From contig JACRFY010000151.1 in the NCBI GenBank assembly GCA_016212565.1, positions 1-32,381 of the forward strand: a DNA stretch of 32,381 nt, given 5' to 3'. Shown here piece after piece: positions 58 through 19,322 of the stretch. The DNA comes from Magnetospirillum sp. (GTDB lineage: Bacteria > Pseudomonadota > Alphaproteobacteria > Rhodospirillales > Magnetospirillaceae). Under the pieces are notes generated by a model. The model ran no database searches. It was not told the DNA's origin and was given only the letters and a program-made list of their open reading frames with translations. The position numbers were made by a program, and so were the translations under genes. Every line of letters begins with the position of its first letter. The stretch's first letter is position 1.

Positions 58-870
58 TCAGACTCCCGCCCGGATATCACGCTCGCGCTTCAGCACTTCG
101 CTGGCGAGGTGGATGTAGGCCTCCGACCCGCTGCTCTTCACGTCGTAGATCAGCACCGGCTTGCCGTGCGACGGGGCCTCGGAAATGCGGACGTTGCGCG
201 GGATCACCGTCTTGTAGACCTTGTCGCCGAAGTAGCCGCGAACGTCGTTGGCCACCATGTCGGAAAGGTTGTTGCGCTTGTCGAACATGGTCAGCACGAT
301 GCCCTGCAATTCCAGGGTCGGGTTGAAGGCCTGGCGCACCAGTTCGATGGTCTTCACCAGGTGGCTGATGCCTTCCAGGGCGAAAAACTCGCATTGCAGC
401 GGCACCATCACCGCATGGGCGGCGACCAGGGCATTCAGCGTCAGCAGGTTCAGCGACGGCGGGCAGTCGATCAGCACGTAGTCGTAGCCCGACACGGTGC
501 CGATGGCCTCGCGCAGACGGTTCTCGCGCCGCTCGGCCTCGACCAGTTCGATCTCGGCACCCGACAGGTCGACACCCGAGGGCACCAGCCACAATCCGGG
601 GATCTCGGTATCCAGCACCGACTCGGCCAGGGGGGCTTCGCCGATCAGGACATGATAGGAGTTGATGGCCCGGGCGGCGCGGTCGATGCCCAGACCGGTG
701 CTGGCATTGCCCTGCGGGTCGAGGTCGATGACCAGCACCTTGGCGCGGGTGGCCGCCATCGCCGTCGCCAGGTTGATGGCGGTGGTGGTCTTGCCGACGC
801 CACCCTTTTGGTTGGCAATGGCGATAATGCGGGTGGGCGTGGAGCTGCTGCTATCGCTCTGCTCGACCAC
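58..870 (-). CDS. parA: ParA chromosome partitioning ATPase
   Basis: A 270-residue Walker-type ATPase of the ParA/Soj/MinD family. Together with ParB and parS it moves the newly replicated origin region apart by cycling between nucleoid-bound ATP dimers and ADP monomers. The deviant Walker A motif KGGVGKTT is at residues 22-29, the Walker B region is VLIDCPPSLN, and the C-terminal part carries the usual RISEAPSHGKP box. The GTG start at 870 has an AGAGGT ribosome binding site about six bases upstream and overlaps the end of rsmG by 20 bases, so the two are probably translationally coupled. The length is normal for chromosomal ParA, and the order rsmG-parA-parB is the classic chromosomal arrangement, which argues against a plasmid locus. 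Confidence 0.97.
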   Translation of the reverse strand: MVEQSDSSSSTPTRIIAIANQKGGVGKTTTAINLATAMAATRAKVLVIDLDPQGNASTGLGIDRAARAINSYHVLIGEAPLAESVLDTEIPGLWLVPSGVDLSGAEIELVEAERRENRLREAIGTVSGYDYVLIDCPPSLNLLTLNALVAAHAVMVPLQCEFFALEGISHLVKTIELVRQAFNPTLELQGIVLTMFDKRNNLSDMVANDVRGYFGDKVYKTVIPRNVRISEAPSHGKPVLIYDVKSSGSEAYIHLASEVLKRERDIRAGV

Positions 871-1471
871 GGCGTACCTCTTTCAGATCCAGAATGGCGG
901 AAGCGGCATCCGTTAGAGAGGGGATGCGCTCGACCGTGATATGCCATTCTTTCTGCGCTGCGGTCAATTCGTCTTCGACCCCGCGACCCTTCAGAAACAG
1001 ACAAAAACCGTTTTCGGCGAGGTGAGGCGCGGCGAGATCGAGCAGCTTGCCCAACGGCGCTACGGCACGGGCGGTGATGAGGTCGGCCATCAATGGCGGC
1101 ACCGCCTCGGCGCGGGTGGCGTGGATGGTCACCGCGGTGCCGCTGACCCGAGCGGCCTCGCGCAGAAAGGCGGCCTTGCGGACGTCGCTCTCGATCAGGT
1201 GGACGTCGGGCGCGCCGAGGATCGCCAGGACCAACCCGGGAAAGCCGGCGCCTGAACCAAGGTCGACCGTGCGGTGGATCGCCCGGTGGGCAAGGTGGGG
1301 GAAAAGCTGCGCCGAATCGAGCATGTGACGCCGCCACAGATCCGGCACGGTGTCGGGGCCGATCAGGTTGATCCGGGCCTGCCATTTGACCAGAAGGTCG
1401 GCATAGGCGCGCAGGCGCTCCAGTGTTTCACGTGAAACAGATGTCGCCGCGGCGAAGTCGTCGGGTGTCAT
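851..1471 (-). CDS. rsmG: 16S rRNA (guanine(527)-N(7))-methyltransferase
   Basis: A 206-residue SAM-dependent methyltransferase (RsmG/GidB) that makes m7G527 in 16S rRNA. The SAM-binding motif VDLGSGAGFPG is at residues 69-79 and the N-terminal LLVKWQARINLIGP stretch is typical of the family. I chose the ATG at 1471, which has an AGGGAG ribosome binding site 5-6 bases away and gives the usual family length. The frame stays open up to 1534, but that extension would only translate a second parS site. Residues 11-16 (SVSRET) are encoded by a parS palindrome at 1424-1439, so this part of the protein is constrained by a DNA site. The gene lies in the mnmE-mnmG-rsmG-parA-parB series. Loss of RsmG is known to give low-level streptomycin resistance in several bacteria. 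Confidence 0.95.
   Translation of the reverse strand: MTPDDFAAATSVSRETLERLRAYADLLVKWQARINLIGPDTVPDLWRRHMLDSAQLFPHLAHRAIHRTVDLGSGAGFPGLVLAILGAPDVHLIESDVRKAAFLREAARVSGTAVTIHATRAEAVPPLMADLITARAVAPLGKLLDLAAPHLAENGFCLFLKGRGVEDELTAAQKEWHITVERIPSLTDAASAILDLKEVRRGRAER
1424..1439. promoter_or_regulatory. parS centromere site 1 (inside rsmG)
   Basis: The perfect 16-base palindrome TGTTTCACGTGAAACA matches the alphaproteobacterial and Bacillus parS consensus. It lies inside the rsmG coding sequence, where it encodes residues 11-16. ParB is expected to load here and spread. The assignment is by consensus plus the neighbouring parAB genes. Confidence 0.93.
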
Positions 1472-1492
1472 GCCCACTCCCTGTTGTGTGTT

Positions 1493-1508
1493 CGTTTCAC
1501 GTGAAACA
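1493..1508. promoter_or_regulatory. parS centromere site 2 (rsmG leader)
   Basis: The 14-base core GTTTCACGTGAAAC is intact at 1494-1507; the outer pair is C/A instead of T/A. The site lies just upstream of the rsmG ribosome binding site, between rsmG and mnmG. Confidence 0.9.
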
Positions 1509-1551
1509 CGATGGCTGGGTGGCGCCGCGGACACACCCCATGCATGGTGTC

Positions 1552-1567
1552 TGTTTCACGTGAAACA
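1552..1567. promoter_or_regulatory. parS centromere site 3 (mnmG-rsmG gap)
   Basis: A perfect copy of TGTTTCACGTGAAACA in the short gap just downstream of the mnmG stop codon (1575-1577). Its start is 59 bases from the start of site 2 and 128 bases from that of site 1, forming a tight cluster of three. Confidence 0.93.
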
Positions 1568-1574
1568 TCCATCT

Positions 1575-3437
1575 CTAGCCATGCCGCCGAACGTGACCGA
1601 GCAGGGCCGTCACCGCCGCCGGGGTGATGCCCGGCAGCCGTGCTGCCCCCGCCAGCGTTTCCGGTCGCGCCGCCTTCAGCTTCAGACGCACCTCCGTCGA
1701 CAGCGAGCCGATGGCGTCGTAGTCGAGGTCATCGGGCAGCGACAGCCCCTCCTCGCGACGATAGGCCTGGATGTCGGCCTCCTGGCGCTGAAGGTGTCCT
1801 TGATAGCCGCCCTCGATCGCCAGCTGCGCCGCCGCCGCCGCATCAAGACCACCCAGCTCCGGCCAAACCTCGCACAGCCGTTCGAGCGTGATGTCGGGAT
1901 AGGCCAACAACTCCCAGGCCGACCGGACCACCCCGTCCTGGTTCACGCCCAACCCCTGGCGACGCAATGCCGTCGGCGATGCCCGCAAGCTGTGCAACAT
2001 CGCCCTCCCCGCCGCGATCGCCTCGGCCTTGGCGGCGAATGCCGTGCCCCGTTCGTCACCGACACATCCCGCGGCAATCCCCCGCGGGGTCAGGCGCAGA
2101 TCGGCATTGTCGGCCCGCAATACCAGCCGGTACTCGGCCCGCGAGCTGAACATGCGATAGGGCTCCGTGGTCCCCAGCGTCACCAGATCATCGACCAGCA
2201 CGCCGATATAGGCGTCGGCGCGATCGAGGATCAACGGTGCCTCGCCTCCCACCTGGCGCGCGGCGTTGATGCCGGCGACGATCCCCTGCCCGCCCGCCTC
2301 CTCATAGCCGGTGGTGCCGTTGATCTGGCCGGCGAGGAACAGACCCCCGACGCGGCGGGTCTCCAAGGACCGATGCAGCTCGCGCGGATCGACGAAGTCG
2401 TACTCGATGGCATAGCCGGGACGCAGCATCACCACCTGCTCCAGCCCGGGGATGGTCTTCAGCAACGCGCTTTGCACATCCGCGGGAAGTGAAGTGGAGA
2501 TGCCGTTGGGATAGACGGTGGGGTCGTCCAACCCCTCCGGTTCCAGGAAGATCTGGTGGCGCGGTTTGTCGGCAAACCGGACCACCTTGTCCTCGATCGA
2601 CGGGCAATAGCGCGGACCGGTGCTCTGGATCTGCCCCGAATACATCGGCGCCCGATGCAGATTGGCCCGGATCAGAGCATGGCTGGCCGCGGTAGTGTGG
2701 GTAATGCCGCACGCCACCTGTGGGATGGTGATGCGCGTGTTGAGGAACGAGAACGGCACCGGCGGATCGTCGCCGGCCTGCATCTCCAGGCCGTCCCAGG
2801 CGATGGTCCGTCCGTCGAGCCGGGCCGGCGTTCCCGTCTTCAGACGGCCAAGGACAAAGCCATGGCGGGACAGGGTTCGCGACAGACCGTAGCTCGGTGC
2901 GTCGCCAACCCGCCCCGCCGGCCATTGCCGTTCCCCGCAATGAACGATGCCGCGCAGGAACGTGCCGGTGGTCAGCACCACCGCACCGCAGCCGATCCGC
3001 GATCCATCGGCCAGGACGACCCCGACCACCCGCCCGTTCGTGACCAGCAGATCCTCGGCCGCCCCCGTCATCAGGATCAGATTGGCCTGTGCCTCCAGCA
3101 GCGACCGCATCGCTTGGCGGTACAATTTGCGGTCGGCCTGCGCCCGCGGCCCCTGCACCGCCGGTCCCTTGCTGCGGTTGAGGATGCGGAACTGGATGCC
3201 GGCACGGTCGATGGCCCGCCCCATCAGGCCGTCGAGCGCATCGATCTCGCGCACCAACTGACCCTTAGCCAAGCCGCCAATGGCCGGATTGCAGGACATC
3301 TCGCCCAAGGTTTCCAGCCGCTGCGACAACAAAACCGTCGCGGCACCGACCCGGGCCGCCGCCGCCGCCGCCTCGCACCCGGCGTGGCCGCCACCGATTA
3401 CCACCACATCGACCGTGTGGTCCCAAACCTGTTTCAC
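1575..3437 (-). CDS. mnmG: tRNA uridine-5-carboxymethylaminomethyl(34) synthesis enzyme MnmG
   Basis: A 620-residue FAD enzyme (GidA) that, in complex with MnmE, installs the cmnm5 group on wobble uridine 34 of several tRNAs. The N-terminal dinucleotide-binding motif [10 protein letters not shown] begins at residue 15. The conserved SCNPAIGG and GTFLRG segments and the C-terminal [10 protein letters not shown] helical region are all present, and the length is normal. The start is a GTG at 3437, preceded by AGGAGAGG about eight bases away. It lies 15 bases after the mnmE stop (3453), so mnmE and mnmG form one operon. The start codon is inside a parS palindrome (3430-3445). Whether ParB binding affects expression is unknown. 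Confidence 0.97.
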
Positions 3438-3445
3438 GTGAAACG
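3430..3445. promoter_or_regulatory. parS centromere site 4 (on the mnmG start codon)
   Basis: The core GTTTCACGTGAAAC is intact at 3431-3444; the outer pair is T/G. The central CACGTG supplies the GTG start codon of mnmG on the minus strand (3437-3435), so centromere site and translation start are the same bases. It is about 1.9 kb from the other three sites. Confidence 0.9.
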
Positions 3446-12342: not shown

Positions 12343-13392
12343 CTAGCCCTTCCACGCCCGGACCCGGTCGACCAATCGCGCGACGTTATCGGGCGGCGTC
12401 GGCGGAGTAATGCCGTGGCCAAGATTGAAGATGAACGGCCCCTTGCCCAGTGCCGTGAGAACGCGGTCGACGCCGGCATCCAGTGCGTCTCCGCCGGCGA
12501 GCAACAGCAGTGGGTCGAGATTTCCCTGGACCGTGCAGCGCGGTTGTAGTTCGGCGGCCGCCCATGCCAACGGAACGGTCGAATCGAGGCTGACGCCGTC
12601 GACGCCGGTTTCATCGACGAAGGCACGATAAAGCACACCGGCGCCGCGCGGAAAACCGATTACCGGAATGCCCGGGCGCTGGCTATGAATCCGTTCGACC
12701 AAGGTTTTGGCCGGACCGATGACAAAGCGGCGGAATTCCTCTTCCGGCAGCGCCCCGGCCCAGGTGTCGAACACCTGGATCGCTTCGGCGCCGGCGTCGA
12801 TCTGCGCGATCAGGTAGTCGCCGGTAGCCTGAACCAACAAGTCCATCACCCGCCGGAACAGCGTTGGTTCGGCCCACATCATTCGCTTGGCGGCGGCGAA
12901 ATCCTTCGAACCGCTGCCCTCGATCATGTAGGTGGCAACCGTCCACGGAGCCCCGGCGAAGCCGATCAAAGCGGTGGTCGTGGGGATCGCCGTTTTCAGT
13001 CCCGCGACCGTGCGGTAGACCGGGGCAAGGTGTTGGTGCAGGCCCGAGAGGCTGAGGGCTTCAAGATCCCTTGCCGAGCGAATCGGCGTCAGGGCCGGTC
13101 CTTCGCCTTCGCGAAAGGACACCGGTTGTCCCAGCGCATCGGGAACCACCAGACTGTCGGAAAACAGGATGGCAGCATCGAAGCCGTAGCGCCGCAACGG
13201 TTGGAGGGTGACTTCGACGGCCAGATCCGGATTGTAGCATAGATCGAGGAAGCTTCCCGCCTGGGTGCGCGTTTGGCGGTATTCCGGAAGGTAACGTCCG
13301 GCTTGGCGCATCAGCCAAAGGGGGGCGGGGGAGACCGTCTCACCGGCGAGAGCACGGAGGAAGGGCTTGGTCGGCGTCGAGGGGACGGACAC
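12343..13392 (-). CDS. hemE: Uroporphyrinogen decarboxylase
   Basis: A cytoplasmic enzyme removing four carboxyl groups from uroporphyrinogen III to give coproporphyrinogen III. The signature [13 protein letters not shown] near the N-terminus carries the two active-site arginines (R29 and R33 in this numbering), and [16 protein letters not shown] is the second family signature. I chose the GTG at 13392 (349 residues) because GGGAG precedes it by about seven bases and the length fits. An ATG at 13428 would lie inside the putative -10 of the promoter at 13424-13452. hemE directly borders the candidate origin, as in Caulobacter, and is transcribed away from it. Confidence 0.94.
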
Positions 13393-13423
13393 GGGCAGGC
13401 TCCCGAACGATGGTACGGATCCC

Positions 13424-13452
13424 CTCATACAAGGTTTAAGGTTTGGTGAAAA
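13424..13452 (-). promoter_or_regulatory. Candidate hemE promoter
   Basis: On the minus strand TTTTCA (13452-13447) and TATGAG (13429-13424) are separated by 17 bases; each matches four of six consensus bases. It would start transcription about 25 bases before the GTG of hemE and sits at the edge of the candidate origin. Confidence 0.4.
13436..13450. promoter_or_regulatory. CtrA-like binding site
   Basis: TTAA-N7-TGAA (TTAAGGTTTGGTGAA) matches the CtrA consensus TTAA-N7-TTAA at seven of eight specified bases. It covers the spacer and -35 of the putative hemE promoter, as CtrA sites do at the Caulobacter origin. A single short match can arise by chance. Confidence 0.4.
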
Positions 13453-13464
13453 GGTAGCTGTAGA

Positions 13465-13473
13465 TGTGGATAG
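13465..13473 (-). promoter_or_regulatory. DnaA box (8 of 9)
   Basis: CTATCCACA on the minus strand, one mismatch from TTATCCACA. A second, weaker box (AAATCCACA, 7 of 9) follows in the same orientation at 13475-13483, one base apart. Confidence 0.65.
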
Positions 13474-13508
13474 CTGTGGATTTCGGGGATCCGATTCCAT
13501 CCGCCGTT

Positions 13509-13519
13509 CGTCCACAGGG
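13509..13519 (+). repeat. Direct repeat CGTCCACAGGG, copy 1
   Basis: An 11-base sequence containing the DnaA-box-like TCCACA; the second copy is at 13620-13630. Both are in the same orientation and could be weak DnaA sites. Confidence 0.6.
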
Positions 13520-13619
13520 CTATCCCCAACCGTCTCCCCCATTCGCCATGGCGGAAACAGTGGGGAAAGCGGATGCCGAGTCGACCAATTCACGCTATCC
13601 TCGCCGCCAAGTCGACACC

Positions 13620-13630
13620 CGTCCACAGGG
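13620..13630 (+). repeat. Direct repeat CGTCCACAGGG, copy 2
   Basis: Second copy of the 11-base repeat, 111 bases downstream of the first, within the candidate origin. Confidence 0.6.
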
Positions 13631-13717
13631 GCATGGTTGTGTCGATGACCGGGACCGGTTTTGGGGATGGTTTTTCCGCCACCGCCGGAACCCCCCGCTT
13701 ATCCCCGTTCACGGGCT

Positions 13718-13726
13718 TTATCCACA
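13718..13726 (+). promoter_or_regulatory. Perfect DnaA box next to the DUF299 start codon
   Basis: TTATCCACA, identical to the strong E. coli R1-type box. It ends two bases before the ATG at 13728 and occupies the position where a ribosome binding site would normally be. Confidence 0.8.
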
Positions 13727-13727
13727 G

Positions 13728-14558
13728 ATGGGCAATTTCCACCTCCACCTCGTATCCGATGCCACCGGCGAGACGGTAACGTCGGTTGCCCGTGCCTGCA
13801 TGGTGCAGTTCGAGGATGTCCATCCCGTGCAGCACAATTGGTGGCTGGTGCGCTCGCAAGGCCAGGTCGAGCGGGTAATTGCCGGCATCGAGGAACACCG
13901 CGGCATCGTCCTTTATACCTTGGTGGACAGTGCCGTTCGCGGTGTTCTCGAAGAAGCCTGCCGGCGGCTGAAGATTCCCTGCATCGCCGTCCTCGACCCG
14001 GTGATGGGGGCGCTGGCCGGCTATCTTCAGGCCGAGATGCAGGCGACTCCGGGTCGCCAGTATCAGTTGGATGCCGAGTATTTTGCCCGCATCGACGCCA
14101 TGCAGTTCACCCTGTCCCACGACGATGGACAGTTGATAGACGACCTGGAGGACGCCGACATCGTGCTGGTCGGCGTTTCGCGAACCTCCAAGACGCCCAC
14201 CTGTATGTATTTGGCCAACCGCGGGTTCAAGTGCGCCAATTATCCGTTGGTACCCGGGGTGCCGTTGCCGCCGCAATTGGAGGTCCTCAAGACTCCCCTG
14301 GTGGTCGGTCTGACCAAGGATCCCAAAAGCCTGTCCGACATTCGTCGCGCCCGCTTACGGTTTCTCAACCAAGAGGAGGAATCGGACTATGCGCAGTTCG
14401 AGAAGGTTCGGGAAGAAGTTGCCGCCGCCCGCCGCCTGTTCACCCGCCACGGCTGGCCGGCGGTGGACGTGAGCCGGCGATCCATCGAGGAGGCCTCGGC
14501 GACCATTATCCAGCTGCATTCGCAACGGAAGGCCGCCCGCGAGGGAGGAATGCAGTGA
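13728..14558 (+). CDS. Pyruvate, water dikinase regulatory protein-like kinase/pyrophosphorylase (DUF299)
   Basis: A 276-residue protein of the DUF299 (kinase-PPPase) family, homologue of Rickettsia RP001. Characterised members reversibly phosphorylate PEP synthase or pyruvate phosphate dikinase, using ADP as donor and inorganic phosphate for removal. The N-terminus FHLHLVSDATGETVTSVA and the P-loop GVSRTSKTP (residues 149-157) followed by TCMYLANRG are diagnostic. Which dikinase it controls cannot be told here, so no ppsR/ppdR symbol is fixed. No clear ribosome binding site precedes the ATG, where a perfect DnaA box lies instead. It heads the chain with maf, aroE, coaE and dnaQ and borders the candidate origin. 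Confidence 0.94.
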   Translation: MGNFHLHLVSDATGETVTSVARACMVQFEDVHPVQHNWWLVRSQGQVERVIAGIEEHRGIVLYTLVDSAVRGVLEEACRRLKIPCIAVLDPVMGALAGYLQAEMQATPGRQYQLDAEYFARIDAMQFTLSHDDGQLIDDLEDADIVLVGVSRTSKTPTCMYLANRGFKCANYPLVPGVPLPPQLEVLKTPLVVGLTKDPKSLSDIRRARLRFLNQEEESDYAQFEKVREEVAAARRLFTRHGWPAVDVSRRSIEEASATIIQLHSQRKAAREGGMQ

Positions 14559-17273: not shown

Positions 17274-18593
17274 CTACAAAATGAACTTTGCCAGATCGGC
17301 CTTCTTCGCCAATTCGCCGACCCGCTCCTCGACCAGTTGCGCGGTGATCTGTACCGCGGTGCCCGGCGTCTGATCGGGGGCGGTGAAACTGATCTCTTCG
17401 AGCAACCGTTCCATCACCGTCTGCAGGCGCCGCGCACCGATATTCTCCACCGCGCGATTGATCTCGGCGGCGAGGTCGGCGATGGCGGCGATGGCGTCGT
17501 CGTCGAACGACAGGTCCACCTCTTCGGTGGCCAACAGGGCGCGGTACTGCTTGATCAGCGACGCCTCCGGCTCGGTGAGGATGCGGACGAAATCATCCCG
17601 GGTCAGGGCCTGCAACTCGACCCGGATCGGCAGGCGGCCCTGGAGCTCGGGCAGCAGGTCCGACGGCTTGGCGAGATGGAAGGCTCCCGAGGCAATGAAC
17701 AGGATGTGGTCGGTACGCACATTGCCGTGCTTGGTTGCCACCGTCGTGCCTTCGATCAGCGGCAGCAGGTCGCGCTGCACGCCTTCGCGGCTGACGTCGC
17801 CGGTGATGTGATGCTCGGACGAACGGGCGCAGATCTTGTCGATCTCGTCGAGGAAGACGATGCCGTTGTTCTCCACCGCCCAGATCGCGTCCTTGACCAC
17901 CGCCTCCTGATCGAGCAGACGGTCGGATTCCTCGGCCAGCAAAACCCCGGCGGCATCCTTGACCGTCATCCGCCGTGGTTTGGTGCGGCCGCCGCCCAGG
18001 GCCTTGCCGAGCATGTCGGAGAGGTTGATCATGCCCATCTGGGCACCGGGCATGCCGGGGATTTCGAAGGTGGGCATGCCGCCGCCGGAATCGGCGACGT
18101 GAATTTCCACCTCTTTGTCGTCGAGCGCCCCTTCGCGCAGCATTTTGCGGAACTTCTGCCGCGTGTCGGCGGACGCGGTCTCGCCCACCAAGGCATCGAG
18201 CAGGCGTTCCTCGGCGGCGATTTCCGCCTTCGCCGCCACCTGTTTGCGCAGGCGTTCGCGGGTCATGCCGATGGCGATCTCGATCAGATCGCGGACGATC
18301 TGCTCGACATCGCGGCCGACATAGCCGACCTCGGTGAACTTGGTCGCCTCGACCTTGAGAAACGGCGCCTGAGCCAGCCGCGCGAGGCGGCGGGCGATCT
18401 CCGTCTTGCCGACGCCGGTGGGGCCGATCATCAGGATGTTCTTGGGCAGAACCTCCTCCTTCAGACCTTCGGGCAATTGCTGACGGCGCCAGCGGTTGCG
18501 CAGCGCGATGGCCACCGCCCGCTTGGCATCGTGCTGACCGACGATGTAGCGGTCGAGTTCGGAGACGATCTCACGCGGGCTGAAGGCGGTCAT
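17274..18593 (-). CDS. hslU: HslU ATPase subunit of the HslUV protease
   Basis: A 439-residue AAA+ unfoldase (ClpY). The N-terminus [31 protein letters not shown] is diagnostic. Walker A GPTGVGKT is at residues 57-64, followed by the VGYVGRDVE pore motif. The intermediate I-domain (about 110-240) contains a methionine- and glycine-rich stretch around [18 protein letters not shown], and Walker B is [11 protein letters not shown]. The C-terminus LAKFIL is the hydrophobic tail that docks into HslV and activates it. Its ATG overlaps the hslV stop by four bases (ATGA), so the two subunits are made together. Confidence 0.98.
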
Positions 18594-19135
18594 AGGCTTT
18601 CCACCACGATGTTGGTGTTGGTGTAGACGCAAATGCCGGCGGCAACGGCCATCGCCTTGCGGGCGATGGCCTCGGCCTCCAGCCCCTCGATGTCGATCAG
18701 CGCCCGGGCGGCGGCCAAGGCGTAATTGCCGCCCGAACCGATGCCGATCAGGCCGTCCTCCGGCTCGAGGACGTCGCCCTGTCCGGTCAGGACCAGCGAC
18801 ACGTCCTTGTCGGCCACCGCCATCATCGCTTCGAGGCGGCGCAGGTAGCGGTCGGTGCGCCAGTCCTTGGCCAGCTCGACGCAGGCGCGGGTGAGTTGGC
18901 CGGGATGCTTCTCCAGCTTGCCCTCCAGGCGTTCGAGCAGGGTAAAGGCGTCGGCGGTGGCGCCGGCGAAGCCGACCAGAATGGTGCCGCCGCCAATGCG
19001 GCGCACCTTGCGGGCGTTGGCCTTGATCACCGTCTGGCCCAGGCTGACCTGGCCATCGCCGGCCAGCACCACCTGGGCTCCCTTGCGGACGCAGAGAATG
19101 GTGGTGCCGTGCCAGGAAGGAAGTGTTTCGGACAT
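18590..19135 (-). CDS. hslV: HslV peptidase subunit of the HslUV protease
   Basis: A 181-residue threonine peptidase (ClpQ) related to proteasome beta subunits. The sequence [12 protein letters not shown] places the catalytic threonine at T11 after removal of a ten-residue propeptide; such short propeptides are usual in alphaproteobacteria. [24 protein letters not shown] and [15 protein letters not shown] are family blocks. The ATG at 19135 fits the family. The frame stays open to 19210 without further conservation. A weak promoter candidate lies at 19170-19197. The gene pair is divergent from the his operon across a 187-base gap. Confidence 0.97.
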
Positions 19136-19169
19136 GGAATATTCTCTGCCAGCGAGGATTGCGTCGGCG

Positions 19170-19197
19170 ATGATAGCAAAGGCCGGCTCCCCGTCCA
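19170..19197 (-). promoter_or_regulatory. Candidate promoter of hslVU
   Basis: On the minus strand TGGACG (19197-19192), a 16-base spacer and TATCAT (19175-19170, five of six). The -35 is weak. No convincing heat-shock sigma-32 sequence was found for this operon. Confidence 0.35.
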
Positions 19198-19200
19198 TCC

Positions 19201-19212
19201 CCGCTGGCAACA
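19201..19212 (+). repeat. Direct repeat CCGCTGGCAACA, copy 1
   Basis: A 12-base sequence repeated exactly at 19257-19268 in the gap between the divergent hslV and hisB genes. Its core CGCTGGCA also occurs inverted at 19147-19154, so the three copies could be an operator. Confidence 0.5.
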
Positions 19213-19256
19213 GATAGGCGCGCCCAGGCCGAATGGAAGGGGTGTCCCTCCTCCCG

Positions 19257-19268
19257 CCGCTGGCAACA
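19257..19268 (+). repeat. Direct repeat CCGCTGGCAACA, copy 2
   Basis: Second exact copy, 56 bases after the first and 55 bases before the hisB start codon. Confidence 0.5.
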
Positions 19269-19322
19269 CCCCATCTTTCCTGCTAGTTAAGGCAAACCCC
19301 GTGACCGAGGAAGGCAGCAGCC

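Follow-up and report, generated by a model that had tools for sequence, protein, structure and literature searches.

Genomic context of the hemE-DUF299 gap

The window analyzed here is a 32,381-bp stretch that represents the entire contig C98 of a draft genome (G000; 4.0 Mb in 308 contigs), whose named close relatives are Magnetospirillum and Rhodospirillaceae. A gap of 335 bp separates the divergently transcribed hemE and DUF299 genes, and its sequence is single-copy in the genome. The genes and parS sites around the gap are as follows:

58..870, minus strand: parA (PF13614)
1424..1439, no strand assigned: parS, perfect motif match
1493..1508, no strand assigned: parS, motif match with 1 mismatch
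1552..1567, no strand assigned: parS, perfect motif match
3430..3445, no strand assigned: parS, motif match with 1 mismatch
12343..13392, minus strand: hemE, uroporphyrinogen decarboxylase (PF01208), start about 13392
13393..13727, no strand assigned: predicted chromosomal replication origin, the whole hemE-DUF299 gap, based on box density, the skew switch in relatives, conserved synteny and parS proximity
13728..14558, plus strand: DUF299/kinase-pyrophosphorylase gene (COG1806, PF03618), RP001-type, ATG at 13728

The initial annotation had likened the flanking genes to those of the Caulobacter origin and the Rickettsia RP001 context. The domain assignments and divergent orientation agree with this, and both of these origins are located between the same two genes (PMC1914354). 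The genes had also been described as reading outward on both sides, which applies only to the near neighbors because a Cdc48-type AAA ATPase ORF (17274-19274), probably hslU, reads inward. A parAB-parS locus had been placed about 10-12 kb away. Four parS sites (1424-3445) and parA are indeed in the window, but parB is located on contig C69. The contig break falls between parA (window, 1-870) and parB (right end of C69), and the two contigs therefore probably join there. In four genomes (G000, G020, G038, and G043), all parS sites with ≤1 mismatch are on the hemE side of the gap, at a distance of 10-13 kb.

The gene arrangement is strongly conserved. hemE is adjacent to and divergent from DUF299 in 50/50 family genomes with sequence, and in the class sample the same holds for 85 of the 97 genomes having both genes. 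The origin between hemE and DUF299 thus appears as the rule in the class sample.

DnaA boxes and related motifs

A number of DnaA boxes and related elements were identified in the gap:

13427..13466, no strand assigned: candidate DNA unwinding element, AT-richer, beside hemE; least stable 40-mer of the window
13453..13470, plus strand: G-rich, C-poor period-3 array AGG TAG CTG TAG ATG TGG, degenerate DnaA-trio-like candidate between the AT-rich part and the box at 13475, overlapping the 8/9 box
13465..13473, minus strand: DnaA box CTATCCACA, 8/9 consensus match
13475..13483, minus strand: DnaA box AAATCCACA, 7/9, in tandem with CTATCCACA and inside the family-conserved CTGTGGATAnCGGGGAT module
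13484..13489, minus strand: TCCCCG, W-box-like, in the same conserved module as AAATCCACA
13508..13516, plus strand: weak DnaA box TCGTCCACA, 7/9 consensus match
13520..13528, plus strand: weak DnaA box CTATCCCCA, 7/9 consensus match, including the W-box hexamer TCCCCA
13561..13566, minus strand: W-box hexamer TCCCCA, within a conserved GGGGAAA element (motif match, family alignment)
13588..13603, plus strand: conserved element ATTCACGCTATCCTCG (family alignment)
13622..13627, plus strand: TCCACA half-box, motif match
13640..13648, minus strand: weak box TCATCGACA, 7/9 consensus match
13662..13667, minus strand: W-box hexamer TCCCCA, motif match
13699..13707, plus strand: TTATCCCCG, 7/9, leading box of the terminal pair; the perfect box is 19 bp away
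13718..13726, plus strand: perfect DnaA box TTATCCACA, 1 base before the DUF299 start

The gap contains seven matches to TTATCCACA at ≤2 mismatches, and the earlier count of one perfect box, one 8/9 and several 7/9 matches proved correct, the last being five. This cluster is well above chance, with a mean of 0.79 and a maximum of 4 in 2000 dinucleotide shuffles of the gap, and the gap is the densest stretch of the window, which averages 0.43 such boxes per 335 bp. TCCACA hexamers occur 5 times (0.20 in shuffles) and ATCC[AC]C 8 times (1.1 in shuffles). The 8 TCC[AC]CA cores compare with a window mean of 0.29 per 335-bp stretch and are unmatched elsewhere in the window. TCCCCA, the W-box consensus in Caulobacter (PMC4285127), is present three times (P=0.0145 vs shuffles). 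The perfect box is rare, with only 7 copies in the whole 4.0-Mb genome. The terminal pair TTATCCCCG/TTATCCACA (13699-13726), which abuts the DUF299 start, is present in most family members. GANTC methylation sites in the gap are not above chance (2 vs 1.6 in shuffles), and a consensus search of the gap gave no match to an IHF site, another feature of the Cori subtype.

The gap is also AT-richer than its surroundings (59% vs 66% GC in the window). The AT-richer patch reported beside hemE was located to 13427-13466 (37.5% GC), the weakest 40-mer of the window. The weakest 40-mer falls in the hemE half in 128/130 related gaps.

Conservation of the gap in family and class

Boxes with ≤1 mismatch average 3.16 per gap in the family and 2.05 in the class, vs 0.06-0.09 in shuffles. 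A weak duplex by hemE with boxes facing hemE is the common layout of the class sample, to which this family adds a terminal pair of boxes by DUF299. In the family alignment, the module CTGTGGATAnCGGGGAT is common to the gaps and is preceded by GAAAGGTnGCTGTGGT and the AT-rich part.

The window gap falls approximately 60 bp short of the family norm, and the middle TGTGGA element of the consensus is absent (13530-13560). About two thirds of the family gaps contain ATTCACGCTATCCTCG, positioned some 145-150 bp ahead of DUF299; elsewhere in the class sample this element is practically absent. A class-wide search for the conserved ATTCACG element returned two matches outside the family, neither of them at hemE.

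GC skew in complete relatives

A sign change of GC skew at the gap had been predicted. Since the genome itself is a 308-contig draft, skew was followed with sparse 20-kb samples in G020 and G038, two relatives from the same family with complete genomes, and the change was found in both at the orthologous gap. In G020, 10/10 samples are positive on one side of the gap and 8/10 negative on the other, and a second switch occurs near 2.2 Mb, about half of the 4.37-Mb chromosome. G038 displays the same pattern with more noise, with one switch at the gap and another about half a chromosome distant. The sign is opposite to that expected in one G038 sample (+124 kb) and in a few samples close to the G020 gap, which limits the resolution of the switch to about 100 kb at best. 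Within the window itself the skew is weak, -0.057 left of the gap and about 0 right of it.

Assignment of the gap as a probable replication origin

The gap combines the box cluster, the weak duplex by hemE, the conserved modules and the synteny with a change of skew sign at the orthologous position in relatives. Judged from these sequence features, it very probably serves a Magnetospirillum-like alphaproteobacterium as its chromosomal origin (oriC), at a position orthologous to Caulobacter Cori. The proposal of a probable origin made in the initial annotation is thus supported by the skew in two complete relatives, the parS clustering and the conserved gene pair with its box-rich gap, and no rival emerged among the box clusters inspected. 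The locus is of a known type, the alphaproteobacterial hemE/COG1806 class, and does not represent a novel kind of origin. The assignment locates the origin, together with a probable site of unwinding, for a genome in draft form.

Other explanations were considered. The gap might be a mere divergent promoter region of hemE and DUF299, with DnaA acting as a transcription factor and replication starting elsewhere. The two genes are indeed transcribed away from the gap, and the perfect box stops 1 base short of the DUF299 start codon, where bound DnaA would block expression. A promoter function alone, however, leaves the skew sign change in relatives, the weak-duplex element, the parS clustering and the class-wide box conservation unexplained, and we consider it very unlikely. 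As a point against the origin assignment, gene regulation may also be a role of the perfect box and of the tandem boxes.

It is still less probable that the gap acts as the origin in relatives but that the copy in this draft genome has decayed, being shortened and without the middle TGTGGA element. The window gap is the shortest among the gaps measured, but both of its ends (unwinding module and terminal pair) are kept, its seven boxes are within the family range of 4-11, and the genome contains a single copy.

Origins close to dnaA are common in bacteria outside the alphaproteobacterial hemE/COG1806 group, but a true origin adjoining dnaA or parB is highly improbable here, as the skew switch lies 0.7-1 Mb from dnaA in relatives and no 335-bp stretch near dnaA or parB in the draft genome contains more than 2 TCC[AC]CA cores, vs 8 in the gap. 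The better box cluster near either gene that would have argued against the gap was accordingly not found. Relative to the gap, dnaA is at about +0.98 Mb in G020 and +0.69 Mb in G038, inside one skew arm without a sign change. In Rhodospirillales, a position of dnaA close to ori is not conserved (PMC8116508). Among the first 100 one-mismatch box matches listed for the draft genome (contigs up to C147), the other groups, on C71, C25, C9, and C37, were much weaker than the gap.

Comparison with known origins

The predicted origin was compared with two origins of the same gene pair. Caulobacter crescentus Cori (hemE/CC0001) has a similar spacing, 404 bp (PMC1914354) vs 335 bp here, and both contain an AT-rich element and DnaA boxes, the gap also carrying TCCCCA hexamers that resemble the Cori W-boxes. 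Cori, however, has only G-boxes (TGATCCACA), whereas the gap has one perfect high-affinity box (TTATCCACA) and no TGATCCACA among its seven boxes. CtrA sites (TTAA-N7-TTAA), a hallmark of Cori, number 0 in the window gap and 0 in all 50 family gaps. This absence is consistent with the reported dispensability of ctrA in Magnetospirillum (PMC8116508). It also fits CtrA control of the origin as a later addition. The Rickettsia prowazekii origin (hemE/RP001) has the same flanking genes and a similar length (384 bp; PMC1914354), but the gap here is GC-rich and lacks the CtrA sites predicted in Rickettsia.

The layout was further compared with the basal unwinding system, which consists of DnaA boxes, a spacer and DnaA-trios (PMC8287927; PMC6669920). 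The tandem boxes in the gap likewise point at the AT-rich element, and a G-rich strand with a period of 3 separates the two. In contrast, the published trio rule (a box, a spacer of ≤16 bp and at least three 3'-NAN-5' trios; PMC8287927) finds no match in the window gap.

Proposed opening mechanism

We infer the exact opening mechanism, including an unwinding step at the hemE-side AT-rich DNA, as follows. DnaA would load at two places, the tandem boxes (13465-13483) and the perfect box by DUF299, and the weak TCCCCA and TCC[AC]CA sites between them would fill cooperatively. The weak TCCCCA sites and the terminal box pair (13699-13726) would assist the invasion of the AT-rich DNA. The arrangement of box, spacer and trio in the basal unwinding system (PMC8287927; PMC6669920) suggests that DnaA runs from the tandem boxes toward hemE. 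The filament would grow in this direction onto one strand of 13427-13466, the one reading AGG TAG CTG TAG ATG TGG, and open the AT-rich element so that the helicase could enter. The new origins would then be segregated by the nearby parS cluster.

Such arrays were scored with a degenerate rule, fixed in advance of scoring the held-out gaps, that requires five or more 3'-GNN-5' triplets next to a hemE-facing box. They were detected in 18/50 gaps of the family, 15/40 of the class and 6/40 of the held-out set, vs 0.9, 0.5, and 0.0 in shuffles. The held-out rate is below that of the set that prompted the rule (15/40), the rule is permissive, and related triplet phases, e.g., A.., also pass. For these reasons, the degenerate trio array is presented as a hypothesis, and as the one possibly new point of the locus. 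In its general form, alphaproteobacterial origins would use a degenerate DnaA-trio that keeps a G in each triplet instead of the middle A (3'-GNN-5' repeated), located between the tandem boxes and the hemE-side unwinding element. We regard this as tentative and, on balance, rather unlikely. If true, it would correspond to the deviant trio suspected by the authors of the basal unwinding system in origins failing their rule. The array offers a concrete testable lead to the opening of such origins.

Other features of DnaA boxes

The perfect box (13718-13726) ends 1 base before the DUF299 ATG and occupies the place expected for the ribosome-binding site of this gene (13718-13730). DnaA binding there could therefore influence DUF299 expression. 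Across the draft genome, TTATCCACA with ≤1 mismatch occurs 176 times vs 289 for a reversed control pattern, suggesting that DnaA boxes may be avoided genome-wide.
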